Virus record (IMG/VR): IMGVR_UViG_3300030098_003782
Coordinates: 1 to 64,000 of that record
Source: a virus
Length of the DNA stretch: 64,000 nt
Strand: one strand, 5' to 3'
Positions within the stretch are counted from its first letter, which is position 1. Every line of letters starts with the position of its first letter. Of the stretch, positions 6,398-62,306 are shown one piece after another. A program made the translations under genes and the position numbers. The notes under the pieces were generated by a model. That model was not told the DNA's origin. It did no database searches and saw nothing but the letters and a program-made list of their open reading frames with translations.

Positions 6398-7999
6398 TTA
6401 ACAATAATCACATCTATTTTTATTTAATTTTCTTACTCCTCCTTTTTTATATCTAGCTCCAAAACCAACACCAAAGTGTGGTTTACCTGTTTGAGGGTTA
6501 TATCCTGCAGATCCACTAATATTTAAAGGGCCCATAAGTCCTATCTGTCCAAATGCTCCTATATTAGTTAATTGTTTATTTGTTAAATCATAATTACCTT
6601 CAACGCCATATGAAAATTGGGGTCTACTACTTCCTCCTTTATTACCAAAAAATCCTCCCCAACCCGGTCGTCCTGCAAAATGATCTCCTGAATGAGCTAG
6701 TCTACCAGTAAGATTGTGAGTACCTTTTCCTTTAGTTGATAATGCGGGTGTTTTATAATTATATCCTACATCTAAATGTACTGGATTCCAATTCTTATCA
6801 TTAAGAAAACTCCAAAAACTACCTGGATCATTATACGGATTAAGTAAATGAGGTAAATTTGTTCTAAGATAACCCCCTATGTTAGCATGTACATCAGGAT
6901 CTTGATATGTACCTATTCTATTATCTACAACTTGTTGAAGATTATGATCCCATCCTGGTCCAAGATTTTGTGGTTGTCCCATAAATCCTTTACTAAAATT
7001 AAGTCCTCCTTTAAGTCCTAATCTAAATGGACTACCTATTGCATTTCCACACCCTTGACCTGATGATGTATCACATTCAAAATTAAGAGAATAGTTCATT
7101 AAATTATTTTTTACAGGATCAGGAGCTACTATATTAGTTGTTAATGGATCAGTATTAGGTCCTCCCTTTTGATATTTTCTTCTTAACCCACCCTTTTTAC
7201 TTATAGTTGCTTGTCCTCCAAAATCATCTGTTACTTGAAAAGGATCTAATTGGGTAGGATTAGATTGTTGAGCAACATTATTCATAAGTTCTACAATATC
7301 ATCATCTGAAAAATAATTAAATAATCTTTGTCCAATCCCTTCTGTTCCTTTTGCTTTTTGTAAATCTTCTAATGTAAATGGAGTAAACTCATCTCCAGTT
7401 GATTGAAACAAACCATCTCTTTCTAATTCATATCTTAATTGTATTAGATCTGCTCTTGTCTCTTGTGGTTTAGCGTCATGATGACTATAACTAATCATAT
7501 CATTATTTAACATTATATTTTTTGACGTAATATAATCTGATACATTTTCATCTAATGTCATTTGATTGTGATCAACATGTCCTAATTCATGAGCTAAAAT
7601 GCTATCGTGAGTTAAGTTTGTACCAAATTTTTTTGGAATATAACTTAATTCTGTCTCTGCATCATCCATATAAAGAATATTTTCTTTTTTATTAAAATGA
7701 GAACCTACATCTGATGCAATAGTACTATTAAATACTATATTAGGATTAGACATAAAATTTTTAGAAAGTTGATCTGCATACATTGGTTGAGCACCAACCT
7801 GATATCCCAGTCCACCATAATCTGCATGCAAAGAATTTGGTTTACCTGCAATATTTTTAGTTTTATCTAGTAGGTGATTATAATGACCACTACTAAGATA
7901 ATTACTATACCAATCTGTAACCCCAGAATAATCTGTTTCTGATACACCAGCAGTTTGATACATCCTAGGTCTTCTTTTATTTAATTTTTTCGTTTTCAT
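6398..7999 (-). CDS. Zincin metallopeptidase fused to a glycine-rich beta-barrel-like domain (533 aa)
   Basis: The N-terminal half carries a complete zincin motif, LAHELGHVDH (H137, E138, H141), with a downstream helix QETRADLIQLRYEL that can supply the third zinc-binding Glu. After the linker RRKYQKGG (about residue 280) the protein changes to glycine/aromatic strands such as GLKGGLNFSKG, LDVGYNYK, FGQIGLMGPLNISGSAGY and FGVGFGARY, which look like porin-type beta strands. It ends in KKGGVRKLNKNRCDYC. It overlaps the neighbouring 929-residue gene by one base and sits between the scaffold-like and portal genes. Probably a virion protein that processes other virion proteins or the host envelope. 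Substrate and location are inferred. Confidence 0.65.
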   Translation of the reverse strand: MKTKKLNKRRPRMYQTAGVSETDYSGVTDWYSNYLSSGHYNHLLDKTKNIAGKPNSLHADYGGLGYQVGAQPMYADQLSKNFMSNPNIVFNSTIASDVGSHFNKKENILYMDDAETELSYIPKKFGTNLTHDSILAHELGHVDHNQMTLDENVSDYITSKNIMLNNDMISYSHHDAKPQETRADLIQLRYELERDGLFQSTGDEFTPFTLEDLQKAKGTEGIGQRLFNYFSDDDIVELMNNVAQQSNPTQLDPFQVTDDFGGQATISKKGGLRRKYQKGGPNTDPLTTNIVAPDPVKNNLMNYSLNFECDTSSGQGCGNAIGSPFRLGLKGGLNFSKGFMGQPQNLGPGWDHNLQQVVDNRIGTYQDPDVHANIGGYLRTNLPHLLNPYNDPGSFWSFLNDKNWNPVHLDVGYNYKTPALSTKGKGTHNLTGRLAHSGDHFAGRPGWGGFFGNKGGSSRPQFSYGVEGNYDLTNKQLTNIGAFGQIGLMGPLNISGSAGYNPQTGKPHFGVGFGARYKKGGVRKLNKNRCDYC

Positions 8000-10788
8000 T
8001 ATCTAAGCCATTGTATTCTATAAGGATTCCATTCTACGTTATATGGTATTGGATTCCAATTTTCATCAAGATGCCCATAATTCCTACTAATATCTATTTG
8101 TGAATAAGGCTCTTTAGAATATCTTTTGATTAATCCACGTTCAGAACTGTTTGGTCCATAATGAGTATGATATTCAGGATCCCAATAGCTTTTATAATTT
8201 GATCGATCTGGCATTGCTCTTTCTTCTATTGTTCTATATAATCTAGATGGTACTTGTGTGATTTGGGACCACTTAGTTTTTACATTGGGATTAATATGTG
8301 CTAATTCTGCTATTAAATTATTCATATACAGTTGTTGTTTAAATCTATGTTTTATATCAGTTGGCCACGACATATTTTCTAAATTAGACCTATCACTTTC
8401 ACTTAATACTCCAAATTTAGGTATATGAATATTTCCACCTGATAGAACTTTATTTTCTAAGATATTGAATGGTTTAGATAACATTGGATACATTAAATTC
8501 TTTAGATATCCCATTTTAGATAAAACATTTGGGACAGCATGAGGTCTAAAATGTCCCTCTTCATTTGTTGGTAAATTCTTATGATTTGAATAATTATGTA
8601 TGTTCCCAACTCTAGATCCTTTTATCATGTTTAAAGCATCTTTCCAATGTAAAAATCCTTTTGACATATCGCTAAGTATATAAGGTGCATATTGTTGAAA
8701 ATTACCATCGTTTGAATATATATCATATACTTGTTTTTCGTTATCACTTAATTTATCATATGATTCTTTTGATAATGCAGATATTTCTATTTCAGGGATT
8801 AAATTCTCATATTTAGATTTTTTTTCTCCACCGTCTTTATGTTTATATGTACCATATTTACTTACTGTTGAATAAGGTTGCTTAAGAGATTGTTTAAGTA
8901 ATGCACGTTCACTACTATTTGGTCCGTAATGAGTATGGTACTCATGATCAAAATAGCTCTGGTAGTTTGAGTCATCTGGACTTTCTCCTTCTCTTATACT
9001 TCTTGATAATCTAGATAAAGGAGTTGTTAATTCAGACCATTTAGTTTTAGCTTCAGGATCAATATGTGCTAATTCCGCAAATAAAGTCCGCATATACTCA
9101 GGTACCTGCCTTTCGTATTCTTTGTCCCTCCTATTCCAAAACTCCTCTTCACTTATTGGGTAACGATCAGGATATTGATAATCCTCGTAGCTTTTTTTAA
9201 AACGTTGTGGAAGGTTAGGTATAGCAATATCTCCGGTTGGAAGGGTTTTTCTAAATACGTCATCCACAGTTCCTAATAATCCTGGTTTTAACGATTTTAA
9301 TCCAGGATACTCCCAGAATGGGGTCAACTTATTAGCGAGCGATGATTGAGCATGAGCTCTAAAATGTCCGTGTTCATCCATTTTCCATTTGTCACCGCTA
9401 GCTAAAGGTTTATTATATATATTTCCAACTCCAGATTTATCTACCATATTTATAGCATCTTTCCAATGTATATGCCCTTCTGTCCTATCACTTAATTGAA
9501 ACGGCATATATTGTTTAAAATCTTTAGAAGGAAGTGTATATGTATCATAAACTTGTTTTTGTGCATCACTTAATTTATTGTATGATTTATCTGACAGTGC
9601 AGATATCTCTACTTCAGGTATGGGGTTTCCACCATCTTCCATTTTTCTTAATCCACCTGTTTTTTTCTTTCTATTAAACAGTGGTATATTTAAACCAACT
9701 TGAAAACCAGGTTTTTTAGTAGCCAGATTATAATTATATTCTCCAGTTACTGGTCCAAGCCTCCCACTAATACCTACATGTTGTCCTGGTCTTAATGAAT
9801 GTTTAGTTCCCGCTTCATAAAACCCACTTAAATTCCATGGTATTATAGGAGCTGAATAACACATTCCTCCAAAACATCCTGCTTTACCTGGTCTACCAAC
9901 ACCTAAACTAAGTCTTGCAGATGCGTCTAATCCTTTAGGAAGTTTAATATTAGGCCAATTAATACCACCACTTGATTCAGTTGCAGGGACTTCAGTAGGA
10001 GGATCAACATTACCTGTACTAGGATCAAATATTCTAGCTGCAGTTGTTGTTGAAGGATATGATGTTGTAGGAGCTTTAAATCCATGTCCTAATTCTCCTT
10101 GAAATGATCCCATCCATCTAGTATCATAATCCCTCATATTATTAATTTTCCACTGAGGAGTTCCAAACCTATAATCCATATTAGCTCCAGTAAATATATT
10201 TCTATCATCTCCCCAACCTCTTGTTCCACGAATAGCTCCAATATCTAAATTGGGGGTAGAAAATCTATAGGTAGGAGAAAGAGATGCATTAATACCAGTG
10301 TTTCCACCCAAAACTTGGGATTTAAGACCAAATCCAGATGATCCTCCATATTGATATTTTCTGAATCCACCTTTTTGATATCCTGAAGGAGATTCTATTA
10401 TAGTTCCTTCATAAGGTCCAGTTGGTAAATCTTGTATTCCAGGAGGAACACCTTTATAACTTTCTACTAAATGACCTTGTTTATCTATCTTTTGAATATC
10501 TATTGGAGCTTTCATACCAACCGTATTAAAAGATGCTCCGGGTTGTACATCAGGGAAAGCCATAGATGCTTCAGTATTTCCTCTAGCATGTTCTTCTCTT
10601 AATCCTATTTCTTGTTCTTCTGGAGTATTAGCAACTTTCATTTCTTGTTCTTGTTGCTGTTTTTGCTCATATTCAGATATAAGATCTATACCTTGATCTG
10701 CAGCTTTAAACACATCAATTATACTGCCTGGAAAATTAGACAGTTTAATACGGTCTAATAAATCTCTTCTAGTCTGATTTGTTGGCAT
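7999..10788 (-). CDS. Large glycine-rich virion protein with a beta-barrel-like part and tandem degenerate-zincin repeats (929 aa)
   Basis: Residues 1 to about 140 are a charged leader. Then comes the linker GGFRKYQYGG, followed by glycine/aromatic strands to about residue 375 (for example GISGRLGPVTGEYNYN, GFQVGLNIPLF). After TGGLRKMEDGG there are two related copies of a domain of roughly 250 residues (about 384-655 and 660-915), each starting with an IPE(V/I)EISALS segment, containing AELAHI, and ending near EYHTHYGPNSSER. AELAH looks like HExxH with the first His lost, so the repeats are probably non-catalytic. The start overlaps the end of the portal gene by 20 bases. Likely a virion or ejected protein; function unknown. 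Confidence 0.6.
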   Translation of the reverse strand: MPTNQTRRDLLDRIKLSNFPGSIIDVFKAADQGIDLISEYEQKQQQEQEMKVANTPEEQEIGLREEHARGNTEASMAFPDVQPGASFNTVGMKAPIDIQKIDKQGHLVESYKGVPPGIQDLPTGPYEGTIIESPSGYQKGGFRKYQYGGSSGFGLKSQVLGGNTGINASLSPTYRFSTPNLDIGAIRGTRGWGDDRNIFTGANMDYRFGTPQWKINNMRDYDTRWMGSFQGELGHGFKAPTTSYPSTTTAARIFDPSTGNVDPPTEVPATESSGGINWPNIKLPKGLDASARLSLGVGRPGKAGCFGGMCYSAPIIPWNLSGFYEAGTKHSLRPGQHVGISGRLGPVTGEYNYNLATKKPGFQVGLNIPLFNRKKKTGGLRKMEDGGNPIPEVEISALSDKSYNKLSDAQKQVYDTYTLPSKDFKQYMPFQLSDRTEGHIHWKDAINMVDKSGVGNIYNKPLASGDKWKMDEHGHFRAHAQSSLANKLTPFWEYPGLKSLKPGLLGTVDDVFRKTLPTGDIAIPNLPQRFKKSYEDYQYPDRYPISEEEFWNRRDKEYERQVPEYMRTLFAELAHIDPEAKTKWSELTTPLSRLSRSIREGESPDDSNYQSYFDHEYHTHYGPNSSERALLKQSLKQPYSTVSKYGTYKHKDGGEKKSKYENLIPEIEISALSKESYDKLSDNEKQVYDIYSNDGNFQQYAPYILSDMSKGFLHWKDALNMIKGSRVGNIHNYSNHKNLPTNEEGHFRPHAVPNVLSKMGYLKNLMYPMLSKPFNILENKVLSGGNIHIPKFGVLSESDRSNLENMSWPTDIKHRFKQQLYMNNLIAELAHINPNVKTKWSQITQVPSRLYRTIEERAMPDRSNYKSYWDPEYHTHYGPNSSERGLIKRYSKEPYSQIDISRNYGHLDENWNPIPYNVEWNPYRIQWLR

Positions 10789-13267: not shown

Positions 13268-13627
13268 TCATTCAAGATAATTACAAATATCATATAAACC
13301 GTATTTTAATGTTAGCTCTTCTCCCTGTTCTATTTTTCTTAATGTTTTTAATCTTCTATAATCATCATCTCCTTCATCTTCTATTAGTTCACAATTAGGT
13401 TCTTCTGAATGATTTATAAAACCTCCTAATGGTGTCCTTATATAATTATGTTGAAAATTTGGATCATAAACATGAGTAATACCTATAACCACCTCTCCCG
13501 GAATATCTTCTTTTGCGAGGATCCCTGCTCCATGAATATTTGATGGTCCTATTGTTAAGTACTCTGGAAGAGGGTTATAAGGTTCTTTATCTTTACATTT
13601 ATCCATATTAATAATAATTTTGATCAA
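13268..13627 (-). CDS. SET-domain protein, putative protein lysine methyltransferase (119 aa)
   Basis: The whole protein is a compact SET domain. The motif GPSNIHGAGILAKEDIPGE (27-45) matches the first SET motif (GxGxFA type), FINHSEEPNCE (70-80) matches the S-adenosylmethionine-binding NHSxxPNC motif, and GEELTLKYGLYD (102-113) matches the closing E-L-x-x-Y motif. No pre- or post-SET cysteine cluster is present. It overlaps the TerL stop codon by 20 bases, and a second ATG at codon 8 would nearly remove the overlap. Its target could be a virion or host protein; methylation in this phage is inferred only from the family. Confidence 0.75.
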   Translation of the reverse strand: MIKIIINMDKCKDKEPYNPLPEYLTIGPSNIHGAGILAKEDIPGEVVIGITHVYDPNFQHNYIRTPLGGFINHSEEPNCELIEDEGDDDYRRLKTLRKIEQGEELTLKYGLYDICNYLE

Positions 13628-33312: not shown

Positions 33313-33318
33313 ACAAAA

Positions 33319-42130: not shown

Positions 42131-42131
42131 A

Positions 42132-48100: not shown

Positions 48101-50501
48101 TTTTTACTTTATTATTTAAAGTTTTATATGGAACTTTTTTATTTTGATCTTTATAACTTTGTATTGTATTTCTATATCTAGCTGTTAAATAGTCTATAAC
48201 TTCTTTAATATTTGCATCTGAATATCCTTCTATACTATTAGCTGTATCAGGTCTAAATCTTTGTATATTTCTTTTAAATGTTACAGGAACTACGTTAGAT
48301 TCAAGCATTTCATAAGCTTGTTTTATAGTCATACTATCTTTAAAAAGAGATTTAATAAAATTCCATATATTTTTAAAGAACTTACCTATTTTGCCGCCAG
48401 GAGTTGCCTGCCCATCAGTTAGCATATACTCACTAAACTCTTCAGCCATTTTTTCTTCTAGTACTAATTTCTCAGCTTCTTTTATAGATAACTTTTCTTG
48501 TCCAAATTGTTTTCGTATCTTATTTATTTCTCTTATTTCTTTGTCTGTAGGTATACCGTATTTTTTTCTAGCCTCTTTATACAAAGATTCTCTTTGTTTA
48601 TCATTCATCCATATTCTAAACATACCATGAAATCCTTCATGAAATTCTGTTCCTATTTTAGCATTTTGGTATAAATAAAATGCCATATTTTCAAAATATC
48701 CATGTCTAGTTATATTACCTATTTTATTAACTCCTTCTAATACAGTGGTAGATCCTTTACCAAATCTATCTTCTAACCACTGTTTTGCTTTTTCTTTATC
48801 TATTCTAGGAGAATGTCTAGCATCTCTTTCTGCGCTAAATACAGTTAAGTCATCTAAATCTTCAGGTTTTATTTTAGGAGCTGCAGATATATTAGGTGGA
48901 TTAGTTTTTGCTGTTGGAGGCCCTAAATTAGGAGATATAGCTGGATTTAAACCTCCTTCTGGAATTATAGTAGGATCAGTTAATATAGATTTACCGTCTA
49001 TTAATACATCATTAAATATTACATGTGTATTATAGTAAATAGATCCTTCTATATTTTTTAAATCTGTATTTAAAATTGCTCCATGGTTTTTAATTGGTAT
49101 ATTATAAGCATAGGGGTCACCATGAGCCTCTTCATCAAATAAATATTCTTGATATGAATTATATCCCCCAGGTTTAGTAAATCCTGGAATAGAAAATTTT
49201 TCTTGGCTAGTTAATAAATCTACATTTATTTGGTGTTTTTTATTTTTAAGTGTATTTAAAAATTCATTTATTAAATAACTTGTTTCTTTTGATTTTGGAG
49301 ATTTTATTTTCTTTGATGTTTTCCATTTAAAGTTTGGTACAGGAGAATCTATAGACTCTTCTACAAAACGCCCAACATCATATACAAACTCTTCTCCGTT
49401 TAACCCTTTATTAAACTCTTTAGAATCTATTCTTATAGCTTTATCATGTGTAGGACTATAAAAATTTAAGAATACTACATTTCCTTCATTAAGAGGAACT
49501 TCTTCAATAGATAAAAAATTAGGATCTTTATGTGCAACTTCAAATAATGTGCTATTACCTACTACTTGATTAATATTTTCAACTCTATTTTCAGATAATT
49601 CATTTAATATATATTCATAAGCCTTATCAGATAAATTTCTAGTACTTAATTTAACATATGAATACTTACCTTCTGGAGTCATGGTTAGAGAAAATATTTG
49701 TCCCATATGTTCAGGTTGAGGTATTCTAGTAGGATCTCCTAAATCTCCAATAATAGCCTCTTGTATCTTTGGGTTTAAATAGCTTAAATCTCCAGGATTC
49801 CATCTAGGAGTTTTACCTATACCTGTAGCAACAAGTAATATAGGTCTAGTTTCTTCTCCCGTAGGTGTTATAAAATTACCATCAATATCTCTAAGTGTAG
49901 TCATTTTTAACTCTTCAGTAATATTAAAAAATACTGGCATACCCCCAATTCTAATATTATTAAAATTAGGTATTTTAGAGTCTACTTGTAATTCAACTTT
50001 TTTCGGATTTTTAGCCGTTAAAGCTTCATATATTGCTTTTCTAATATGAGTATTTACATTATGTTCTTTAAAAGATTCTAATAAATCTAATCTATTACCT
50101 TCTTTATCTACAATATATAAAGGAGCTTCTATCCAAGGCTCTTCAAATTTATCTTTATTATTTGCCCAATAATCATTTTCAATAAATTGAATTTCTACAA
50201 AATCTCCAGGTAATACTTTAGGAGTATTTAAATTAGATTGATCTAAATTATCAGAAACATTATTTATAGTATTTGGATTTTTCTTTACAGGTACTATTTC
50301 ATCACCTTGAATTCTAACAGCTCTTCTAATCCTACCTTCTACATTTTGAATTTCATTACCATATTTAGCATTAGCAATTTTTATTTTACTACTATCAACT
50401 TCTTTATTAGGTTGTAGTCTAGCTTCAATTGCAGCTTTTAATTTGGCGATTTCAGCAAGTCTAGCTTCTATATCGCTTATTCTTTTTTTATTACATCCCA
50501 T
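42132..50501 (-). CDS. Giant virion RNA polymerase (2789 aa) with metallopeptidase-like domain
   Basis: The catalytic loop of a two-barrel RNA polymerase is visible as QMGADFDIDTLQLM (Asp2059, Asp2061, Asp2063). It is preceded by LIGYRIPTQGKNSMLPMIIK, the equivalent of the R-x-P segment of cellular beta'. The DFDID loop is the signature of the crAss-like virion polymerase (phi14:2 gp66), which is ejected into the cell and transcribes early genes. At about residues 615-720 there is a zincin motif TEFHEGFHGM (His621, Glu622, His625) with a Glu-rich helix EEKMAEEFSEYML. The N-terminus is a short coiled coil. It is one of the largest proteins in the genome and is coupled to both neighbours by gaps of 1-4 bases. 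Confidence 0.85.
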   Translation of the reverse strand: MGCNKKRISDIEARLAEIAKLKAAIEARLQPNKEVDSSKIKIANAKYGNEIQNVEGRIRRAVRIQGDEIVPVKKNPNTINNVSDNLDQSNLNTPKVLPGDFVEIQFIENDYWANNKDKFEEPWIEAPLYIVDKEGNRLDLLESFKEHNVNTHIRKAIYEALTAKNPKKVELQVDSKIPNFNNIRIGGMPVFFNITEELKMTTLRDIDGNFITPTGEETRPILLVATGIGKTPRWNPGDLSYLNPKIQEAIIGDLGDPTRIPQPEHMGQIFSLTMTPEGKYSYVKLSTRNLSDKAYEYILNELSENRVENINQVVGNSTLFEVAHKDPNFLSIEEVPLNEGNVVFLNFYSPTHDKAIRIDSKEFNKGLNGEEFVYDVGRFVEESIDSPVPNFKWKTSKKIKSPKSKETSYLINEFLNTLKNKKHQINVDLLTSQEKFSIPGFTKPGGYNSYQEYLFDEEAHGDPYAYNIPIKNHGAILNTDLKNIEGSIYYNTHVIFNDVLIDGKSILTDPTIIPEGGLNPAISPNLGPPTAKTNPPNISAAPKIKPEDLDDLTVFSAERDARHSPRIDKEKAKQWLEDRFGKGSTTVLEGVNKIGNITRHGYFENMAFYLYQNAKIGTEFHEGFHGMFRIWMNDKQRESLYKEARKKYGIPTDKEIREINKIRKQFGQEKLSIKEAEKLVLEEKMAEEFSEYMLTDGQATPGGKIGKFFKNIWNFIKSLFKDSMTIKQAYEMLESNVVPVTFKRNIQRFRPDTANSIEGYSDANIKEVIDYLTARYRNTIQSYKDQNKKVPYKTLNNKVKNSVLREAFSTNEGLPIEGAEKLEVLREWYEKRDDKILFNNQIKKQSVRPIKGEPKTHMYPNQNNHEYLLNIYTNWNDIIDNSELENLRRVGFESLMQDGLVNYGLKLKLGEVILEEVEEGTAYERIYSRSRVEEDMRNKINSQIKEFLSTIPSGESSYLGYENYLPFDTVYKDIQSILADSTSFPIILNRLDIAGKTKPHIAEVVKRLRETTDNNLRAGFAFTFMQSKNNFFLAKETTEGLQFMNSNRNAVETRIIDQWRTNAVQHKGFPNERHLYSIRQVGDNLIYSTNKKRVSKLNTTFKSMNKIYNDNPSKPLPEKRIEDLINFLHILGVDITSSPQKSKELLTTYFNEGSTEFSKTGQKLKGVALYKNMLDNGTATEVSRLVKGVNKGENIYTTYRGILSKFSSIAMSGQVDLFTSFLNVKNNSIHPINMPTPMDDLILNLKGNNREFFEPFLKDVFYNPAEYNSKARSLWLTIYGGLAGNFSNEARANLTTEIFDGYVKFSGRSFDFGEMNEIQSAYIRLGAFMDRSGKRGYVKMFVPNLSDRSKLKAYTVPSIDTIKTKLNLSDKDIIKGLIIQDLMRYQQADLQTESVEEGGLPDNQLIPGFHYQESPRSKDGKAFQLLQLTPVENSAVFQTKIQYLLSDVDWKDYLSGDVMVINREAVNDALNNEVAKVIDALNERAKKNMAYYQSKGILDKLKKSVSNPYSSLEELFRQYEFNNMVHKIELQKFTRGGIAFNKSYTDFSKRFGNMETPGYKLLLKGDLKDPGYGFYRQFNEGLMEDFFTTPVVYEQIGDSITATLEAQGDINAEKIGNSYKRSNKSDAFGVVSIDFYKAFKEGKGEWQKEDEEAYQNYKNGRSGNKFFRDNSGRRRRLEPIKGYFDAMVEKNGMMMPQNTKNSYMVLTEEFTLNNPTAELIRQRLEGEGNFAELPTMHVLNTVSTKKLAYTGVENLNDTDQVLDRLTNMDVTTLPGSGFRIPQIIPEKTKDYGLLGRQFMLGIISNIDLNDPALNYIVNQNRINERALNGRQVFDLYHNTVSNMIDKSYKKLMNDLGYGDLVKAVGYEAQNTAQLNLLKNLRTRLIQEIKDRELAENYIKALEIEKTEKGNYRFKIPLAFPTLKRKFESIIMGMLKKDIVKQTINGGSAKQIAELGGHITWDQATGLPSSWTELKFIRNENGTIKHAEVAISEELAAQYGFKPGEDLSTMPEELRILIGYRIPTQGKNSMLPMIIKYILPRNYDQAIMVPAGITVQMGADFDIDTLQLMKPNTRKNPETGRQEKINVNYRNLFIGPEVDYSALEKLERPELENIIIDLAESILKSFAHFGEVVTPLDSPNLAFIANQVKETLGLKEEFDHNDSFSEIQLERMNKDGNSGIGIYANAATGKNIAVYSQLHLKAGLAPVIDGQEYNNLQSIFDDKTTSNRTRGEKSELIEYNISKRISSAVDNAKNPDMYFRNDNALTAPISILFDSLGINEYVTHDFLNQPVIRMLTRVYQDGEYTPNMLYEAVSETWNTYTSKYTVGQHIDMPFSEVSDFGFVEMSTEKLSNISEENIIHEDQLQYLSNFLSFHKTGRDLTSAYVLLNQDKGADQANFGGLLSYKSRKDVLVQNDLIGGLNSVLEGESYPLQKSYKQLIDKLLDFGSEFFIHNKRSVIKVKEQIRTLLNKDNLSDVDHRLIEEAILLEIMSKENSPLKSTVFTEDNIRNLLIRPKTNVLAKLQDLKAKFPRLEENMFIKNIIEHPENLKEDSILTRVKFQNINSFTKSETDLFSLGLKNLFLDSEAEIRELATDFIRISLLSHGFTPGHDSFIDIIPVEVLSNSSTYFYEQFELLDEIEYLGNNFAHDFIRNFYYTDVVNQIKVNKESVAANTIQLNKKDSRIYSKILNKTTDYFKVSSPQGTKLFVKVDEVGDNVLYKRSTTKGIPYGLKELNIYNSEGMRVDKSVIQGNQAGRENIQPGLAKYHEQRIDEIVEDNEDAKKRCVNIKSI

Positions 50502-50504
50502 ATA

Positions 50505-53500
50505 TTAAGTATTACAATTATCGTCTTCTTTGTTAAGCTCTTGTCTTAACCGTTCCTCCTCTTCTAAAAGTTGTTGATAATATTCATCTACACCTTCTAT
50601 AGGAAGTACATCTACTTCAGCTGTTGAGTTATCTATATCTTTTTTCATATCATCATTTAACTCCTCTTTTAATCTTTGTTCTTCTTCTGGAGATATCTCT
50701 TCCTTTATTATTACTTCTTCAGTTGAAAAATCTGTTTTATCTGTTTGAGTTTCACCCTCAACTGTTTCTTCTGTGTTTAAAACAACATCACCTTCTATAA
50801 CTCCTAACTCAATAAGTTTTTCATAAGCATATCTTCTACTTCCCTTTGCATTGTCTCTTCCTGCTCTATAAGGAGCTTGAAATGATAATGTTCCCATTAA
50901 TTTTGAATCGTAATCACTTTTTCGAAGAGGTATTCCTTCTTCTATTTCTTCTTTTATTTCTGGCATTAATTCTGCAGTAACTCGTTCAGAATTACCAGTA
51001 TTTATAGGACCAGTTCCCCATATCCATCTTTGCATAGCATTAACTAGTATAGCTTCGCTGTGTTCTTGAGGATTATTTAAAATATCTTCCATTAAAAAAT
51101 CAGCAATTAATTCGTTTCCTTTTCCTGTTTCTTTAGCTTTGCTATAAATAAATCTTTCTATTTCTTTTTCTGACCTATTTTTATCACGGTATAGTTGTAA
51201 TACTTCTTTATGCTTGTCTTGAAGAACATCTTCTAATAATTTTAATCTTTCTTCTTTACTAGTTACAGGAGGAATACCTTTAATTTTTCTAAAAGATCTA
51301 TGCTTACCGCTTTTCTCATCTTCTTCAATAGGGGTTTCTTTCTTTGTATTATTTTTAGGATTTAATTTTACAGCTTTAAGAGCTTCTAAAACATTAAGTT
51401 TATGTCTTAAATATTTAGCCTGTTTAGGATTATCTCTAATTTCATCTAATTCTTTTATAGTTTTTTCTATTTCCTTATCTATAAGTTCAACAGAAACATT
51501 TGGATCTCCATATTTATCTTGAATTGCTATTTCTTGTTTTTGCATTTTTTTAACTTCAGCTTCTACTTCTTTACGCTTTGCTTTACTAACTGCAGAAGGA
51601 ATATTTCTTAATGCACTTTGTGGATCAGATTCAGTATTTATAATTTCATCTGCTCTTCTATTTGCTGCGTTTTTAATACTTTGCTCTCCTGCAGCTAAGG
51701 CAGCTCTAATATAATTAGTTCGTCCTCTATTTGTTTGTAATCTATTCCAGTTCTCCATAAGATCTTGTAAATTACGATGTAAAAAATAATATTCTGACAT
51801 CTGTTTTTGTATAGCCTCTTTATCTAAAGGATGTTCAAATTTAACATTTTTAACTGAATTTGCAACACCATCTGTAAAAGTTTTATAAGCTTTATTATGC
51901 AGTTCATTTAAATCTTCTTTAGGAATTTGGGCCATAGTTGTTATAACATTTCCATTTTCATCTGTTTTTCCTGTTGCTTGTGCATTTAAAATGTATTCTT
52001 CTACTAAAGCATCAAATTGCTCAGTAGCTAAATCTACTTGTTCTTCTAATGTGCTTAAGGTTACACCTGGAACTAGTGAATCTATTTCTTTAGCTTTATC
52101 TTCTTTTTGGTTACTTATAGTATCTAAAAAAACTGCATTATGAAGAAGTTGAGCTTTAAGCATTTGATTTTCTTTTATTCTGTTTGCTTCTCTTTCTCTT
52201 CTAGTTTTTCCCATTAAAACTCTTGGAAGACCTTTTGTTGCTTCTTCAGAAAACATTTCATCTAAAGCATTTTTTCTTCTAACTATAGTTTCAGTTTCTT
52301 CTAGCATATTATCAATAACTTTATTTTTATCTATTTGTATATCTTGAGCTATACCAAAAAGATTTTTAAATTCTGTATCAGAAAGAGATCTAAAGTCATT
52401 TAATCTAGTTGTAAAAAATTCTAATGTACCTGCATTATCTAATGTTGATATTTCATTTATAAGAGCTTGAGTCATTGCTTGATCAGCTAACTTATCTTTA
52501 CCTTCAGCTCTGTATTTATCAGCTTTATCTAAATAGTACGAAGTTGCTGAACTAGATTGACCTCTATTAATAATACCCATAAAAGCGTCATCATTCATAA
52601 TTTCCTGAACTCTAGAAGCTAGTTTATTTCTATTTTTTACTCTACTATAAGTACCTACACTTCCTCCTATACCTCCAACTATAGCTCCAATCATCATAGA
52701 TTCTAATCCTTCTGTTTCTCCAAACGTTCTAGATAAACCTTCAGTTATAGCTTCTGTTGAAGTTATACCTCCATCATTATCAAATCTAGAAGCATAATAT
52801 TCTGTAGAAGCTACATTAGTAGCATATTGACCTCCTTCTTGTATTGCTTCTACAGTCATTCCTCTTCTTGCTCCACTTGTCCATTTTCTTAATCTTCCTA
52901 ATTTAGAGGCTGATCCTTTATCTACTATTTGTTTACCAGTTTGTTGTAATCCTCCTCCAGTTATTCCACCTTTTAAACTTTGTTTAGTTACACCCCCAGC
53001 TAAAAATTTACCAAACATACCTACATTAGTTATAGATAATATAGACATATTAGCTGCAAAACTAGCATTACCAGCAGCTTGAGATAAAGCTTCTATTTCA
53101 TTTAAAACATGTCCAGGTATACCTTCAGGATATTTTTCTAGAGCTTCGTCCATTAATCTTCTTTTTATATTTTTTTGAGTTTCTCTAGCTTCTACAGAAG
53201 ATTCTGCTAAAGACATCATAGCCCCTGCTTCTAAAGTTAATAGTCCTTTTTTAATTCTTCCTGTTTTATTAACTTTGTCATACATTGATAATAACTGTTC
53301 TCCTCGTTTAGTTCCTTTAGCTGTTTTATAAAGTTTATGTATTCTTTCAGCTTTAGTTGCAGCATTTAATACCCTACTCGCTTGAAGAACTCTACCAGCT
53401 ATTCCTATAGCGCCATATCCTCCAGTCATCCATACAGTTGCTAGTGATCCTAAAGTGTATCCTAAACCATTAGCAGCTTTATCAGCCCAAAAGTTAGCTG

Positions 53501-54053
53501 TGCCCATTCTACCCCAAAGACCCATATCTTGCTCTGCTCTTGTATAATAATTAGGCATTTCTTTTCTACCCCATTCATTCCACCCATCTACCATTTTACC
53601 AATTTCATTATTATGATATTGACCACCACTTAACATTTCATCAATACCAGCTATTATACCTATAGTATTTTCTACTATAGCCCCTCCTGTAGTTATAGCT
53701 GCTTTTTTAAGTCCATGATTCCATTTTTCTCCAGTAGTTTGTTTTTGTGCCCTTAGTTCATTCCATTCTTCTCCATAAGCACTGAATATAATTCCATATT
53801 TACTGTATTTAGATGGATGATCATATTCACCCAAGTCCGGATTCCATTGTTTATATGATAAATCCCTATGTCTGAACATAGAAGGATCAGTTATACGTCC
53901 GCTTTTAGGTCCTACAGGTAAAGGCATATCAGGATCTATATGTAAACTATTTGTAAAATTAGTAGGTCTATGCCTTTTTCTATAATTAGGTAATTTAATA
54001 TCCTTATCTATATTTATACCTGTATAATATTTTGATCTATCGTGATGGCTCAT
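50505..54053 (-). CDS. Giant putative ejected protein with glycine-rich membrane-like segments (1182 aa)
   Basis: The first 480 residues contain several glycine/alanine-rich hydrophobic segments, such as GAIVENTIGIIAGIDE, GLGYTLGSLATVWMTGGYGA and MMIGAIVGGIGGSVGTYSRV. They look like membrane or glycine-zipper segments used by podovirus ejection proteins. The rest is highly charged helix with a very acidic tail. It lies next to the virion polymerase. Probably an internal virion protein that helps form a channel through the cell envelope. No enzymatic motif was found. Confidence 0.55.
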   Translation of the reverse strand: MSHHDRSKYYTGINIDKDIKLPNYRKRHRPTNFTNSLHIDPDMPLPVGPKSGRITDPSMFRHRDLSYKQWNPDLGEYDHPSKYSKYGIIFSAYGEEWNELRAQKQTTGEKWNHGLKKAAITTGGAIVENTIGIIAGIDEMLSGGQYHNNEIGKMVDGWNEWGRKEMPNYYTRAEQDMGLWGRMGTANFWADKAANGLGYTLGSLATVWMTGGYGAIGIAGRVLQASRVLNAATKAERIHKLYKTAKGTKRGEQLLSMYDKVNKTGRIKKGLLTLEAGAMMSLAESSVEARETQKNIKRRLMDEALEKYPEGIPGHVLNEIEALSQAAGNASFAANMSILSITNVGMFGKFLAGGVTKQSLKGGITGGGLQQTGKQIVDKGSASKLGRLRKWTSGARRGMTVEAIQEGGQYATNVASTEYYASRFDNDGGITSTEAITEGLSRTFGETEGLESMMIGAIVGGIGGSVGTYSRVKNRNKLASRVQEIMNDDAFMGIINRGQSSSATSYYLDKADKYRAEGKDKLADQAMTQALINEISTLDNAGTLEFFTTRLNDFRSLSDTEFKNLFGIAQDIQIDKNKVIDNMLEETETIVRRKNALDEMFSEEATKGLPRVLMGKTRREREANRIKENQMLKAQLLHNAVFLDTISNQKEDKAKEIDSLVPGVTLSTLEEQVDLATEQFDALVEEYILNAQATGKTDENGNVITTMAQIPKEDLNELHNKAYKTFTDGVANSVKNVKFEHPLDKEAIQKQMSEYYFLHRNLQDLMENWNRLQTNRGRTNYIRAALAAGEQSIKNAANRRADEIINTESDPQSALRNIPSAVSKAKRKEVEAEVKKMQKQEIAIQDKYGDPNVSVELIDKEIEKTIKELDEIRDNPKQAKYLRHKLNVLEALKAVKLNPKNNTKKETPIEEDEKSGKHRSFRKIKGIPPVTSKEERLKLLEDVLQDKHKEVLQLYRDKNRSEKEIERFIYSKAKETGKGNELIADFLMEDILNNPQEHSEAILVNAMQRWIWGTGPINTGNSERVTAELMPEIKEEIEEGIPLRKSDYDSKLMGTLSFQAPYRAGRDNAKGSRRYAYEKLIELGVIEGDVVLNTEETVEGETQTDKTDFSTEEVIIKEEISPEEEQRLKEELNDDMKKDIDNSTAEVDVLPIEGVDEYYQQLLEEEERLRQELNKEDDNCNT

Positions 54054-54061
54054 ATATAATT

Positions 54062-56746: not shown

Positions 56747-56759
56747 ATTTTATTTATTA

Positions 56760-59700
56760 TTAAAAGTATTTGGTTTGTCCCATTCCGTACATATTAGCAT
56801 AATTAGCTATATCTTCATTTGTACAATTTTCACAGAATAGTCTTCCATCCTGATGATATAAAGTCCCACCTAAGTGTCTTCTTAATAACATACGATTTGT
56901 AGTATTATCTATACTATATCCTTGAGCTTTTAAGGTATCTCCTTTATATCCTAAAACATCTCTAGTTAATTGTCCTATACCCTGAGCTGCAGAGAATATT
57001 CCTGAATACTTCATATATTCTTGATCATCTCTCCATTTATTTAAAGCTGCTGTATTAAAAGCTTGTACATCTTGTAGCCTCTTAGCTTCTTGTTGCTGTA
57101 ATTGCATATTTTGTGTCATCGCTTCTTGTTCTTGTCTTACATTAAAAAGCTCTGTTTGATTTTCAATTGCAACATTTTGATTTTCTATATTAGTGTTATA
57201 ATCTTTTTCTAACTTTGCAATCTCCATATCACCTTTATGCTTCTTGCCCCAGGTTGCCATTCTATTTATTAAATTGGCAGGACCTCCTCCAGACTGATCT
57301 ATAAAAGTATTCATAGCATTAAAATCAGCATCGTTTTTAGCTCTTTGCATATTTAAATTTATGTGATTTAATTTTTGAGCTCTTACTCTTTTTGGGACTA
57401 TAGGAGATGTAACTCCAGATTCAAAAGGAAGTGTTTCTGGTTTTGGTTGAGTATGAAGTAATGAATATGCTGCTGGTGCTAAATTGGCTAAAGCTCCCAT
57501 ACCAATAGCTACATCAGCTCCTCTATCGCCAGTTATACTTCTTTGCCACCATGGAAGTTGTTCTATTTCTTCTTTATTTACTAATGAATTATTAACAGTA
57601 GATACACCTGTACTACCATCTTCAAGTAAAGGACCAATAAATTGTTGATTAGGCCTTTGTATAAAATCAGGAATTCCATCATTATCTTCATCTGTTAAAG
57701 GAATTGGTTCTATATAAGATCCGGTAGGAACAAACCCTTCATCTATTCCTCCCATCAATTGATCCCATGCGGCTTGATGCTGTGGCCCCCATTGTGTAGT
57801 ATTATCCCAATTATAAGGTTTATATTTTCCACTTAACGGATCATATTGTGATCTATGCCATCTTTCATAATCTGCTCTAAATTCATCAAAACTAGAATAT
57901 CCTCTAGCATTTAATTCTTCTTCTGTAGGTTGCACATAAGTACCATAATTTTTCATAGCAGAGTATGAAGAATCAACATCACCTTCTGAGTATTTAAATT
58001 CAGGAGGATTTATATATCCTTTATCAGATAAATAGTTTTCAGCATCTATTGAAAAATAATCTCCTATTTGATTCCCATCTTCAAAATTAGTTGTAACATC
58101 ACCTTCTCGTGTAAATCCAGTAATTAAATTATAATCATTATCAACTGATTTATTATTATTAAATTTTCCAGCTATAAAATTTGGACCATAGTTTTTAACT
58201 CCTTCTGTTAAATTTATTTGACCATTATTATCAGATGTAAATTGTCCTGTATGAGTATATCCCCAATCAACAAATTCTTCTCCAGAATCCTCTGCTGCAT
58301 CTATATCGTTATAAGTAAATTCACCTGTTCCATGAGGCTTTCCATCTTTAAACTCTCCTTGGTACATTCCAATAATATAATCTGTACCTGCTGCAGGAAC
58401 AAACTCATGATCTAAAATCATTTCTCCAAGAGGGTCTTTTTCATCAGCATTTGGTGTCCAATATGTATACATAACTCCGCTACCATCTTGACAATTGCCA
58501 CTTATACATACAGTATATCCGTCACCCATTTCAGCATTAAATCCATAAGCTCTATCATAATCTTTTCTAAGCCCTATTGTTTCTTTTGGACCCTCTTCTT
58601 TTTCTTCTTTTTCTGGTTTTATTTCTTTATATTTACCATCTACAACTTGATAAAGATTTCCATTTTTTTCACTTTGATAATACCTGCCCTCTAAAGCATT
58701 TTTTATCTTTGGAGTACCTATAATTGGATTTTCTAAATTACTACCTAAACCTTCTAATATAGCATTATATTGAGCCATTGCTTCATTCCAACTTATACCT
58801 GCAGTTGCTGGATTAACCTTACCTTCACTTTTTTTGTCAGGATCTAAAGGATAATCAAATCTTTTTGGAATACTTGGATTTGCTATACCTCCATTTTCAT
58901 ACTTCATAAATCCTCCATGCTTAGCTTCTTGTACTTTATTAGGACTTCTACCAGCTGCTTTTTCTTGCATTCTTGCTAAGTAATTAATCTGCTCTTGATC
59001 TCCACCAGAAGCTAAAATTTGTTTATGCATATCAGCAAAAGACATACCTCCTTTCTTTAAATGTGAAGAAAAGAAATAATCTTTTGCTCCGCCATTTTTC
59101 ATAACTACTTTATCCATAGTTTCTCCATCTTCTACTTCAGTCATAGGATCTACTAAAATACCTCCTTGATCGTGAGTTTGACCAGTAAATTCTACTGCGT
59201 CTGATCCTGGTATAGTAGTCATCATACCTCCAGGTAGTTGTTGCATTTTTTGATATAAACTAGGATTAGACATATACATTCCTCCAGATGCCTGTTTTTG
59301 TCTAAGACCTCCATTTTGAAACCCAAATAAATATTCTGTAATACCCATATCAGGTAAATTAAACCATCCTCTTTTTCCTACTGAACTATAAGGTCCCTTT
59401 TTTGACTTTTTAGTTTTTTCAGTTTTATCTTCAGATTCAGGAATTTGAAAAGTATAAGAATCTTCAAATGACGGGCCTATCATCACAGATCTATTTGGAT
59501 TTTCTTTATAATTAAATTCAGATACAGCTTGATTATAATAGTCAGGAGTACCATGAACATCTGAAGATGTATTATAATAATCAGACCAATATTGACCAAT
59601 ACCTTCAACTGATGTTGGTGCTGCTGTAGGATCAAGCATATAATATAACCTAGCCGCTAAAACATTAGCTAACGGATTAGATCTAACCTGCTCTAAAGTC

Positions 59701-60020
59701 ATATTATTAAAGTCTATTCCAAATTTGTCTTTAACTTGTTGTAATTTTTTCTTATTTTTAGGATGAGATTTAACGTCTTTAATGGCGTTATATGCAGGTG
59801 GCATTATTTGCATATAGTTTGTACCTGCAGAAGGATTCCATCCTCCTGTAGATTCTGCTATAGCTGTATAAGTTAATAAATCTTTACCTCCATATTCATC
59901 AGAAACTTTTTGAATAGCATCAGCTAATTCAGGTTTTAAATCTCTATATGTAGTACTTTTTAATGGAATACCTTGAAAGTCATCCCAATATCCAGCATTT
60001 TGATATTTCTTTCTTAACAT
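56760..60020 (-). CDS. Virion lytic transglycosylase with MORN and calcium-binding-like motifs (1086 aa)
   Basis: After the linker MLRKKYQNAG, residues about 20-190 form a soluble lytic transglycosylase domain. IAESTGGWNPSAGTNYMQIM holds the catalytic Glu and the N-Y-M-Q-I-M motif, and LANVLAARLYYMLDP follows. The linker motifs NGGLRQKQASGG and HGGFMKYENGG come next. Around residue 520-590 a MORN-type repeat is seen (MYQGEFKDGKPHGTGEFTYN). Further on DEDNDGIPDF resembles a calcium-binding D-x-D-x-D-G loop. The C-terminus is coiled. It should cut peptidoglycan during DNA entry. Confidence 0.75.
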   Translation of the reverse strand: MLRKKYQNAGYWDDFQGIPLKSTTYRDLKPELADAIQKVSDEYGGKDLLTYTAIAESTGGWNPSAGTNYMQIMPPAYNAIKDVKSHPKNKKKLQQVKDKFGIDFNNMTLEQVRSNPLANVLAARLYYMLDPTAAPTSVEGIGQYWSDYYNTSSDVHGTPDYYNQAVSEFNYKENPNRSVMIGPSFEDSYTFQIPESEDKTEKTKKSKKGPYSSVGKRGWFNLPDMGITEYLFGFQNGGLRQKQASGGMYMSNPSLYQKMQQLPGGMMTTIPGSDAVEFTGQTHDQGGILVDPMTEVEDGETMDKVVMKNGGAKDYFFSSHLKKGGMSFADMHKQILASGGDQEQINYLARMQEKAAGRSPNKVQEAKHGGFMKYENGGIANPSIPKRFDYPLDPDKKSEGKVNPATAGISWNEAMAQYNAILEGLGSNLENPIIGTPKIKNALEGRYYQSEKNGNLYQVVDGKYKEIKPEKEEKEEGPKETIGLRKDYDRAYGFNAEMGDGYTVCISGNCQDGSGVMYTYWTPNADEKDPLGEMILDHEFVPAAGTDYIIGMYQGEFKDGKPHGTGEFTYNDIDAAEDSGEEFVDWGYTHTGQFTSDNNGQINLTEGVKNYGPNFIAGKFNNNKSVDNDYNLITGFTREGDVTTNFEDGNQIGDYFSIDAENYLSDKGYINPPEFKYSEGDVDSSYSAMKNYGTYVQPTEEELNARGYSSFDEFRADYERWHRSQYDPLSGKYKPYNWDNTTQWGPQHQAAWDQLMGGIDEGFVPTGSYIEPIPLTDEDNDGIPDFIQRPNQQFIGPLLEDGSTGVSTVNNSLVNKEEIEQLPWWQRSITGDRGADVAIGMGALANLAPAAYSLLHTQPKPETLPFESGVTSPIVPKRVRAQKLNHINLNMQRAKNDADFNAMNTFIDQSGGGPANLINRMATWGKKHKGDMEIAKLEKDYNTNIENQNVAIENQTELFNVRQEQEAMTQNMQLQQQEAKRLQDVQAFNTAALNKWRDDQEYMKYSGIFSAAQGIGQLTRDVLGYKGDTLKAQGYSIDNTTNRMLLRRHLGGTLYHQDGRLFCENCTNEDIANYANMYGMGQTKYF

Positions 60021-60038
60021 AATTTTTATTTTTTTTAA

Positions 60039-62306
60039 TTAATATCCGTATCTTGGAACTCCTCTCATAAATCCTCCACCTCTATACATTACATTTCTAC
60101 CAAGATTTTGTCCAGATATTGTTTTTTGTGCTAAGTTACCAGCTGCAATATTAGCTAATTGAGAACCATATAAACCTCCCACTCTTTCATTTAAATCATA
60201 TATAGCTTCATTTCTATTAGCGGCCGCTTCTGATTCATAATCTCTCTGAGCTTGTGCAGCCTTTCTAGTACCAAATGCTTGTTTTCCATATCCCCACAAT
60301 GCTCCAAGTCCAGCTCCAATTGCTGTACCAGGTCCTGGAAATAAAGATCCAATTGTAGCTCCAGTTCCAGCAGATTGTAATACAGATCCTGTATATTCTC
60401 CAAAATTAGATTTAGTTGGATCATCATCGTCAGCTAATGCACTAACTCCCATTCCTGCTAATGAAGCAATAGTACCTAATCCTGCTCCTGATTGTGCAAA
60501 TGATTTTAATCCTGCACCAATAGCGCTACCCCCAACTTCAGACCCTATAGCAGCAGCATCAGCAGCTGTAGAAGCCGCAGTAGGTGCCGCATATGGTACT
60601 CCTTTAAAAGCCATTTGTGATCCCTTAGCAGTTAATTCAGCACCTTTAGCAGCTGCTTCTGTTGCAGCCCCTGCTACTCCTGGAGCTAATGCTCCTCCAG
60701 CTTTGCTTAACTCAGCACCTTTAGCCATTAAATTAGCTGCTCTAACAGTTTTATAAGCATCTACTCCACCAGCTATAGCTGAACCAAGTGTTGATGCTTC
60801 ATGTTCAGGAAATAATGTACTACCTATTCCTCTAGCCAAAGTGTTTGCAGTTCCTTCTACTTGTGAAGCAGCAGTTCCTGCCATTGCTTCTGCTTGCATA
60901 GCTTCTTGTTCCGCTAGTGCTTCGTCTTGTATTCTCTGTTGTTCAGTTGACTGTCTTAATCCAGTTGCTTCTTGTGACAGTGATTGTCCTACAGTTCCTA
61001 ATTGTTGTAGTCTTTGTGCTTGTATATTAGGATCTGTTTCTTCTCCAACAATTGTAGATGTATATCCTAATTGAGGAGCAGTACCTTGTCCTGCACCCGA
61101 TAATGTATTGTCATACATTCCTCCTGTCTCTCTTCTAAATGGACCTTCTGGACCCTTTTGAGTTCTTCCACTAAGAGGTATATTAACACCCCATCCTCCA
61201 GTCCACCCTGCAGCATCTTTTCCTACATTCATTGAAAATGGACCATAATTTACGCTTCCACCATAACTTGTTCCTGGAGAAAAAGATTTTTCAGTTCCGT
61301 ATCCAATATTTCCTCTAATTCCCCAATTTGAATTTTGAGGGTAATATCCTAATCCTGCCTGTACATGACCGTATCCTCCTTTATTTAGACCAGTTTCTAA
61401 TGTATTAAATACATCTCCCGTTTTAGTATTATAATAATTATTACTCCCTTTTAACAAGGATCCTATTTCTCCTTCGATTCCTCCTACGAGACTACCACTT
61501 TTATTTAAAGGATGTTGATAAGCGTAATTAAGTCCTAGAGTTGTTCTGTTTTTATCCAAAGCTGTTCCTTCATTTACTCCAGAACCTGCTTTATCACGTA
61601 TATTACCTCTATACATCATACTACTAGTAAGACTTGGGCTTATACTAAAACTACCTCTACTACCTTCAAGCCCAGATAATTCATAATCAGTATCTGGACC
61701 TGTCCTTAAGAATGCTGGACTGTAATTAGCATTTAGAGTAGTACCTTGTCCTATACCAAAATTACCACTAAGACTAGGATTAAAAAAATCTGCTTGTCTA
61801 TTTCTAATTGCTATAGGCTCATCTAACCAGTTTTGATATCTATTAAAATGTCGTGATCCAGGCTCATAGCCAAATGGATTATTTTTGTTTAAATCTATTA
61901 CTTTAGGATCAGGTTTAAATCCTGCATTTTGATATTTTTTAGTACCCCCATATCTGTATTGCATAGGTCTAATACCTCCTGTTTTTAAAGATCCTCTAGG
62001 AACAGTTCCCTTTACTGGAGGCAAACCTTTAACTCTTTGACCTTTTTTGTACCCATCTGTACCGTCACTTATATAGTAAGTTCCTATTTGAACTTGTTGC
62101 ATAGATCCAGAAGGTGTTGATCCAGATTGATCTGGAACAAGATGTATAATTTTTCCTATTCTAGTATTTTCATCTACCTCTTGAAGTTTAACTTCTCCAT
62201 CAATTCCACTAATAAATTCTTGTAAATCTGGGGTATTAGCAGAATTTAGAATCATGTCCCACAGACTCTTTGTTTTTCCACCATTTTGATATAATTTTGT
62301 TTTCAT
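60039..62306 (-). CDS. Glycine-rich virion protein with beta-barrel-like and glycine-zipper parts (755 aa)
   Basis: Start chosen at 62306 (MKTKLYQNGGKTK). The ATG at 62339 lies inside the upstream gene, and MKTK-type starts recur in related proteins here. Several linker motifs (KLYQNGG, GGIRPMQYRYGG, KKYQNAG) precede a 200-residue stretch of glycine/aromatic strands (GSFSISPSLTSSMMYRGNIR, GHVQAGLGYYPQNSNWGIRG, GGSVNYGPFSMNVGKD), which resembles outer-membrane beta strands. The C-terminal part is Ala/Gly-rich with glycine zippers (ATIGSLFPGPGTAIGAGLGA). A channel-forming, ejected protein is a good hypothesis. Confidence 0.6.
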   Translation of the reverse strand: MKTKLYQNGGKTKSLWDMILNSANTPDLQEFISGIDGEVKLQEVDENTRIGKIIHLVPDQSGSTPSGSMQQVQIGTYYISDGTDGYKKGQRVKGLPPVKGTVPRGSLKTGGIRPMQYRYGGTKKYQNAGFKPDPKVIDLNKNNPFGYEPGSRHFNRYQNWLDEPIAIRNRQADFFNPSLSGNFGIGQGTTLNANYSPAFLRTGPDTDYELSGLEGSRGSFSISPSLTSSMMYRGNIRDKAGSGVNEGTALDKNRTTLGLNYAYQHPLNKSGSLVGGIEGEIGSLLKGSNNYYNTKTGDVFNTLETGLNKGGYGHVQAGLGYYPQNSNWGIRGNIGYGTEKSFSPGTSYGGSVNYGPFSMNVGKDAAGWTGGWGVNIPLSGRTQKGPEGPFRRETGGMYDNTLSGAGQGTAPQLGYTSTIVGEETDPNIQAQRLQQLGTVGQSLSQEATGLRQSTEQQRIQDEALAEQEAMQAEAMAGTAASQVEGTANTLARGIGSTLFPEHEASTLGSAIAGGVDAYKTVRAANLMAKGAELSKAGGALAPGVAGAATEAAAKGAELTAKGSQMAFKGVPYAAPTAASTAADAAAIGSEVGGSAIGAGLKSFAQSGAGLGTIASLAGMGVSALADDDDPTKSNFGEYTGSVLQSAGTGATIGSLFPGPGTAIGAGLGALWGYGKQAFGTRKAAQAQRDYESEAAANRNEAIYDLNERVGGLYGSQLANIAAGNLAQKTISGQNLGRNVMYRGGGFMRGVPRYGY

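Follow-up and report, generated by a model that had tools for sequence, protein, structure and literature searches.

What does a short basic and aromatic motif that ends in Gly-Gly do in four large proteins of a crAss-like phage? The motif, of the general form Lys/Arg-x-Tyr-Gln-x-Gly-Gly, occurs in the 533-, 929-, 1086- and 755-residue proteins encoded by a 64-kb stretch (the window) of the 68-kb viral record IMGVR_UViG_3300030098_003782, and an initial annotation had proposed it to be either a processing site or a packaging/ejection tag. We found that the element, conserved as protein, signals the boundaries at which exchangeable modules begin in cargo-type proteins of the phage group. Copies stand N-terminally and at the joins of modules, and C-termini carry an abbreviated form (Gly-Gly and a basic tail); the fullest form of the element is K-K-G-G-(Y/F/L/I/V)-(K/R)-x-K-Y-Q-x-(G/A)-G. 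Processing and tagging still appear to be the two leading explanations. Cleavage after the second glycine by a virion-associated peptidase would be the most likely function, with a probability of roughly 40%.

The terminase, portal, major head and muzzle-type proteins of the window match phage families, the terminase being nearest to those of crAss-like phages (42%), and the group carrying the element is an aquatic branch of these phages. The 929- and 533-residue genes lie between the portal gene and the scaffold-like and major head genes. At the right end, the gene order is the muzzle-type protein (1787 residues), 755, 1086, 894 and three very large proteins, so that the 755 and 1086 genes adjoin the muzzle-type gene. 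These positions suggest a virion location for the four cargo-type proteins and, together with the virion proteins of crAss001, point to their probable carriage in the particle and delivery to the host.

All motif strings quoted initially (RRKYQKGG, GGFRKYQYGG, GGLRKMEDGG, KKYQNAG, RKKYQNAG, KLYQNGG and GGFMKYENGG) were found on the minus strand, and among the 55 open reading frames (ORFs) of the window the motif is confined to the four proteins. A strict pattern, [KR].[YMF][QEN].[GA]G, has seven copies in these ORFs (20,720 residues), compared with a mean of 0.36 and a maximum of 2 in 200 residue shuffles. One further copy, RMYQTAG at nt 7946-7975, had been missed at the N-terminus of the 533-residue protein. 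The copies and their shortened forms are listed below; pLDDT is the predicted local distance difference test score.

7946-7975, minus strand: N-terminal tag RRPRMYQTAG, 533-residue protein (residues 9-18)
7160-7198, minus strand: joint KKGGLRRKYQKGG with RRKYQKGG at the peptidase/barrel border, 533-residue protein (residues 268-280); pLDDT below about 32
6401-6454, minus strand: C-terminal tail RYKKGGVRKLNKNRCDYC of the 533-residue protein, Gly-Gly followed by basic and aromatic residues
10342-10383, minus strand: joint GYQKGGFRKYQYGG with GGFRKYQYGG, 929-residue protein (residues 136-149)
9628-9666, minus strand: joint KKTGGLRKMEDGG with GGLRKMEDGG, 929-residue protein (residues 375-387)
8827-8844, minus strand: KHKDGG ahead of the second copy of module C, 929-residue protein
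59991-60020, minus strand: N-terminal tag MLRKKYQNAG, 1086-residue protein (C1 slot)
59280-59321, minus strand: joint FQNGGLRQKQASGG ahead of the conserved C1 core, 1086-residue protein (residues 234-247)
58887-58922, minus strand: joint KHGGFMKYENGG with GGFMKYENGG, 1086-residue protein (residues 367-378); last Gly-Gly invariant in 6/6 relatives
62277-62306, minus strand: N-terminal tag MKTKLYQNGG, 755-residue protein
61920-61985, minus strand: joint KTGGIRPMQYRYGGTKKYQNAG with KKYQNAG, 755-residue protein (residues 108-129)
61119-61136, minus strand: RRETGG ahead of the conserved core GGMY, 755-residue protein; Gly-Gly invariant in 6/6 relatives
60042-60089, minus strand: C-terminal tail MYRGGGFMRGVPRYGY, 755-residue protein; Gly-Gly invariant in 6/6 relatives

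Relatives were collected through the portal protein (501 related contigs, of which 80 were kept) and through the muzzle-type protein (three), and whole contigs were fetched. L and G numbers (L153, L078, G001 and so on) label the relatives' loci or records, and the C1 slot is the position of the 1086-type gene. As direct queries in viral-contig searches, the 755-residue protein retrieved no relatives and the 533-residue protein one identical contig; tblastn of the 1086-residue protein against phage records gave no match.

The strict pattern had been derived from the window's own data and was therefore tested on the relatives, from which the window and duplicates were excluded. The 59 cargo-class proteins gave 25 matches (shuffles 1.3) and the 1,019 other proteins gave 10 (shuffles 5.2). 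A slightly wider pattern gave 44 copies against 1.7 in the cargo class and 10 against 6.1, near chance, in the others, where several of the 10 fall in cargo-like proteins. Enrichment over composition-matched sequence was thus seen in the window (7 vs 0.36) and in the relatives (44 vs 1.7) alike. Nineteen of the 25 internal copies in relatives have a [GA]G 1-5 residues upstream. A motif-free inspection of residues around every Gly-Gly in cargo proteins gave Tyr or Phe at position -4 in 30% (background 8%), Gln at -3 in 26% and Lys at -2 in 25%, and other proteins had no such peaks. With the N-domain sites left out, the -4 peak was still 75/349 (21.5%) versus 139/1240 (11.2%), with p = 2e-6, a value to be read as a guide only because the counts include homologous sites.

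The element is a viral protein motif in use beyond the close kin of the window. Viral contigs and cellular genomes (bacterial and archaeal) were scanned with one KKYQNGG DNA pattern, the cellular scan giving mostly chance matches that served as background. Among 53 distinct viral matches, 45 were inside an ORF of at least 80 residues, 15 were no more than 20 residues from its start and 17 had another [GA]G just upstream; the corresponding figures for 77 cellular matches were 18, 0 and 1. Three of the KKYQNGG-bearing phages tested share the portal, terminase or head families of the window and the others do not. The cultured Cellulophaga phage phi17:2 has four [YF]-Q-x-G-G copies (FQAGG, YQNGG, FQIGG and FQSGG) in gp41, compared with 0.06 in shuffles, and none in the seven other structural proteins examined. 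Annotated as structural, gp41 adjoins gp42, which carries a peptidase module of the 533 type; gp41 has no Lys-Tyr-Gln N-terminal tag. The specific spelling is nearly absent from the gut crassviruses crAss001, p-crAssphage and crAss002. A looser pattern, in which one or two residues separate an aromatic residue from [GA]G, mostly does not exceed shuffles in the window proteins or in gut crassvirus C1, and we therefore make no claim for gut crassviruses.

The border itself is exact to the residue. In 40 non-redundant relatives of the 929-residue protein with a recognisable N-domain end, that end is Y-x-x-G-G in 40/40, with the tyrosine and both glycines invariant. Pairwise identity averages 0.68 in the 31 positions that end with the second glycine and 0.08 in the 25 that follow. 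Where sequences agree in the residue, codon identity was 0.68 at the joint, 0.65 in the rest of the domain and 0.31 at the second glycine. Synonymous codons at the joint thus vary freely; it is the protein and not the DNA that is conserved, and modules have been exchanged exactly behind the second glycine. From the break and the free codons together, the core can be written [YF]-[QK]-x-[GA]-G, selected as protein and marking the start of a module. The first of the two glycine positions was seen solely as Gly or Ala. Three aligned borders of the 755- and 1086-type proteins keep Gly-Gly in 6/6 homologues of about 30-57% identity.

At the termini, the N-terminal tag is retained in 6/6 C1-slot proteins while the module behind it changes (MLRKKYQNAG, MFRKKYQNGG, MYKKYQKAG, MHRKKLKTKYQSGG, MFRKKFIDRLRDKYQTGG and MKNSILKKLSKKYNKGG). 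With independent loci included, 10 of 13 distinct 1086-type proteins carry K/R-x-(Y/F)-x-x-(G/A)-G, or something close to it, within about 25 residues. C-termini often finish with Gly-Gly and a basic, aromatic tail, and in the viral set such 'GG-basic' tails end 14/51 tagged and 11/540 other proteins.

Comparison of modules across the relatives bore out the placement of the motif at domain borders. The initial description of the four proteins as unrelated was half right: they are mosaics built from a common stock of modules, among them a zincin-like peptidase, transmembrane-type beta-barrels and a lysozyme-like domain. In relatives, the same modules appear in other genes and orders, joined at the motif.

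7259-7714, minus strand: zincin-like peptidase module, 533-residue protein; HELGH at nt 7577-7591
6455-7102, minus strand: barrel A, transmembrane-type beta-barrel module, 533-residue protein (residues 300-515)
10381-10788, minus strand: conserved N-domain of the 929-residue protein, weakly DUF192-like, ending GYQKGG
9664-10341, minus strand: barrel B module, 929-residue protein (about residues 150-375), also in L078 and L074; a barrel by strand-pattern similarity alone
8002-9627, minus strand: module C, two copies, 929-residue protein (about residues 390-630 and 654-890)
59319-59990, minus strand: lysozyme-like N-terminal module, 1086-residue protein; replaced by barrel A in L153
61137-61919, minus strand: beta-rich module, 755-residue protein (about residues 130-390)

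Barrel A of the 533-residue protein, counted from RRKYQKGG (residues 272-524), is the N-terminal 250 residues of the C1-slot protein of L153, where it begins MYKKYQKAG and ends KKGGFRKYQNGG; it also lies within the 929-type slot proteins of L078, L075 and L076. Its AlphaFold model is of moderate confidence, with many blocks at pLDDT 50-79, and matched a designed 10-strand barrel (Z 12.8, 130 residues aligned, rmsd 2.9) and KdgM/NanC-type porins (Z near 10); joints and termini of the 533-residue model are at about 30-32 or below. One may speculate that such a barrel, if delivered along with the genome, would aid passage across the outer membrane. As in outer-membrane proteins, the last strands of the barrel-like modules (6455-7102, also about 9664-10341 and 61137-61919) often end in aromatic residues (FGARY, GLNIPLF, and RLKKSF at the true C-terminus in L151). 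Homologues of the 533 peptidase module were found at residues 864-1011 of the 929-type slot protein of L074 and at the C-terminus of phi17:2 gp42; the assignment comes from HExxH and the gp42 similarity, with no Pfam match and a low-confidence model of this half. The L154 homologue of the 755-residue protein is collinear with it and cleanly lacks the beta-rich module between residues 130 and 389; the 755-residue model (mean pLDDT 36) is too poor to name a fold. When all BLAST ends were taken as boundaries, 17/177 fell within 10 residues of the element, compared with 3% expected, a modest signal from data points that are not independent.

Several known systems resemble this arrangement. Polyvalent proteins of phages and conjugative elements, for which processing into units has been proposed (Iyer et al., 2017; PMC5512222), are large mosaics whose genes lie among those of the virion and whose modules include zincin-like peptidases and lysozyme-like domains. 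The window proteins share with them several unlike globular domains per polypeptide in mosaic combinations, and genes that adjoin virion genes; the putative zincin-like module would be a further likeness. They differ in that a defined element marks the module starts, whereas the paper on polyvalent proteins (PMC5512222) describes no shared boundary motif, and in that beta-barrel modules are common. In crAss001, gp44 (muzzle), gp45 (cargo C1) and gp46 (C2) precede the RNA polymerase proteins gp47, gp49 and gp50, and the virion paper mentions no cleavage of C1 (Bayfield et al., 2023; PMC10172136). The window has the same order of muzzle, cargo, C2 and RNA polymerase, but two genes (755 and 1086) where crAss001 has one. 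A C-terminal stretch of the 1086-residue protein gave a weak hhalign match to gp45 712-792 (E 0.0058, probability 6%, 80 columns, matching C-terminal positions); unlike the window proteins, gp45 lacks the K-Y-Q-x-G-G spelling, and its Gly-Gly elements with a nearby aromatic residue are not above shuffles. Core polyproteins of African swine fever virus (ASFV) are cut by the protease pS273R after the second glycine at the borders of these virion polyproteins (PMC10308890), and the window proteins share Gly-Gly-X at module borders; ASFV belongs to a different virus realm, no relative of pS273R was found in the window, and the likeness is one of spelling only. The papers searched gave no earlier description of the motif or of processing of crAss-like virion proteins.

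Under the preferred reading, the cut after the second glycine would be made during assembly or delivery by a peptidase that the phage packs into its particle, most probably one of the zincin-like HExxH domains. This would free separate effector units (peptidase, lysozyme-like, beta-barrel and others) and remove the short basic leader. As the units would end up separate, we propose that genes could fuse, split and swap modules at these points harmlessly. Before its removal the leader may also aid loading into the prohead. The capsid targeting sequence of phage T4 does so as a short N-terminal stretch on head-internal, ejected proteins and is removed by the phage protease; the T4 sites are of the L/I-x-E type and terminal only. 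By this analogy, cutting and a loading tag can both be true.

Several observations argue for cleavage. Identity breaks at an exact residue, the N-terminal tag is kept while modules are replaced, and Tyr/Phe peaks at -4 of Gly-Gly. There is no strong residue preference after the second glycine, and whole modules are freely fused, split or lost at the element. The strict [GA]-G and the invariant Gly-Gly appear stricter than a plain hinge should need, and the RNA polymerase proteins of the particle contain peptidase motifs, which would supply a candidate enzyme. An independent line of reasoning led to the proposal that zincins process multidomain injected proteins (Iyer et al., 2017; PMC5512222), and the ASFV core polyproteins provide a case of cutting after Gly-Gly at borders (PMC10308890). 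Other points weigh against it. We infer cleavage from sequence comparison, and the virion polymerase of N4, with a peptidase domain of this type, enters the particle uncut (PMC5512222). Cleavage would reduce to fragments some small basic phage proteins that have five or six copies, and the full motif is missing from the slot proteins of many relatives, save for Y-x-x-G-G at the N-domain end. Pfam scans of the window ORFs gave no dedicated Gly-Gly protease, solely a DUF2201_N metallopeptidase-like domain, and the HExxH matches are of the motif alone.

As for the enzyme, the initial annotation had pointed to the 533-residue peptidase. This was not supported as such: the zincin module comes and goes between relatives and, being itself exchangeable, was rejected as the one processing enzyme. 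The HExxH-bearing virion RNA polymerase proteins are more constant across relatives, and two are encoded in the window.

37598-42130, minus strand: 1510-residue RNA polymerase-associated protein, HEFGH at nt 41441-41455 (motif only); also in G001-G004 and G010
42132-50501, minus strand: 2789-residue RNA polymerase protein, HEGFH at nt 48627-48641 (motif only)

The 1510-residue protein is a candidate processing peptidase by its motif. HExxH is also present in the corresponding giant proteins of crAss001, p-crAssphage, crAss002, FpV4 and cr50_1, and peptidase-type HExxH motifs lie near cargo genes in nearly all longer records. The DUF2201_N protein (window 32140-33312; also in G002, G003 and G006, not in G001 or the gut phages tested) was rejected as a constant protease, being present in 4/15 records and missing from several long relatives. 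No cysteine protease of the ASFV/adenovirus type was found among the ORFs of this 68-kb record's window scanned by Pfam; because the record is incomplete, little can be concluded from this absence.

It is possible, and only a little less probable than cleavage, that the element is an uncut loading or ejection tag, a basic-aromatic binding motif serving to bring the protein into the prohead or to align it at the portal or tail, with Gly-Gly as hinges facing a folded module. Its partner could be DNA or the strongly acidic scaffold-like protein (nt 5206-6297, pI 4.5), which has a charge of -38 and an acidic N-terminus. The symmetry of the element (tag-GG-module at N-termini, GG-tag-GG internally with upstream [GA]G in 19/25 copies, GG-tag at C-termini) fits this proposal, as does the terminal placement familiar from loading peptides; proteins with five or six copies suggest multivalent binding, and 'GG-basic' tails are commoner in tagged proteins (14/51 vs 11/540). 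The core, however, is nearly unchanged although the shell proteins have diverged far, which is odd for a tag with a fast-changing partner, and the invariance of [GA]-G exceeds what a hinge needs.

That the elements are plain flexible linkers seems unlikely. Ejected proteins would unfold and thread the portal and tail like beads on a string, the sequence being kept mainly by descent and module exchange. The low pLDDT (below about 32) of the joints and termini in the 533-residue model is as expected, and crAss001 C1 is divided between tail and capsid, its resolved stretches 214-245 and 425-552 (PMC10172136) being near Gly-Gly elements. Yet the tyrosine at -4, useless in a hinge, is invariant in 40/40 N-domain ends, and the core also stands at N-termini, which have no need of a linker.

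A recombination site in the DNA, enabling module exchange, is very improbable as the cause of the conserved spelling. Breakpoints do coincide with the element, and motif codons within a genome are somewhat more alike than codon usage predicts (142/186 vs 115.6). Across the relatives, the joint shows no extra conservation at synonymous sites, the second glycine codons are free (0.31) and N-terminal copies are kept without exchange; the codon data largely refute such a site, which may still help exchange. Chance or composition has next to no likelihood, for although the proteins are rich in Lys, Gly, Gln and Tyr and the looser pattern is mostly not above shuffles, it is refuted by the shuffle counts in relatives (44 vs 1.7), by the viral and cellular KKYQNGG matches (45/53 vs 18/77 in ORFs of at least 80 residues, 15 vs none N-terminal) and by the residue-exact border.

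crAss-like viruses from aquatic samples build proteins, which they probably inject, from swappable parts with the same tag at the start of each part. Multidomain proteins enter the host with many large phages, and the element bears on the loading, separation and release of their parts. A shared boundary element makes separation directly testable, as new protein ends would follow the second glycine; if it is cut, the idea of polyvalent-protein processing gains a concrete site. The element also explains how freely such proteins are rebuilt and offers a handle for finding cargo modules, including new effectors, in uncultured crAss-like phages. A broader version of the cleavage reading, which we regard as doubtful, is a 'cut here' code in which one element, read by a virion-borne peptidase, would define interchangeable effector cassettes in the polyproteins of a large aquatic crAss-like group, among them membrane beta-barrels deliverable to the host outer membrane.

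Some minor observations concern the tag and its carriers. Small lysine-rich phage proteins in L049, L064, L065 and L058 contain five or six tag copies, some with glycine-zipper stretches, and the L065 gene lies behind the portal and major head genes. A small basic protein MGKQMIKRKDGSYSQRGLWDNI at G008 32817-33341 (also in G002, G003 and G006) has several Lys-Met/Tyr-x-x-Gly-Gly repeats, and in L005 its sequence is an internal fusion within the protein of cargo type. In the cargo proteins of gut crassviruses another spelling recurs, (Y/F)-(K/R)-C-G-G with basic residues, often C-terminal and in few copies (p-crAssphage 52837-53628, crAss002 40547-42217). By eye, a 1553-residue mosaic protein at L081 12294-16952 has an ADP-ribosyltransferase-like stretch (VVYHGSGKKFDTF...GIYTTP). 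The 1086-residue cargo-type protein (window 56760-60020) has a MORN repeat at residues 553-572. Between the portal and terminase genes, a small ORF at window 13268-13627 is suggested by its sequence to encode a SET domain (Pfam match in the scanned set).

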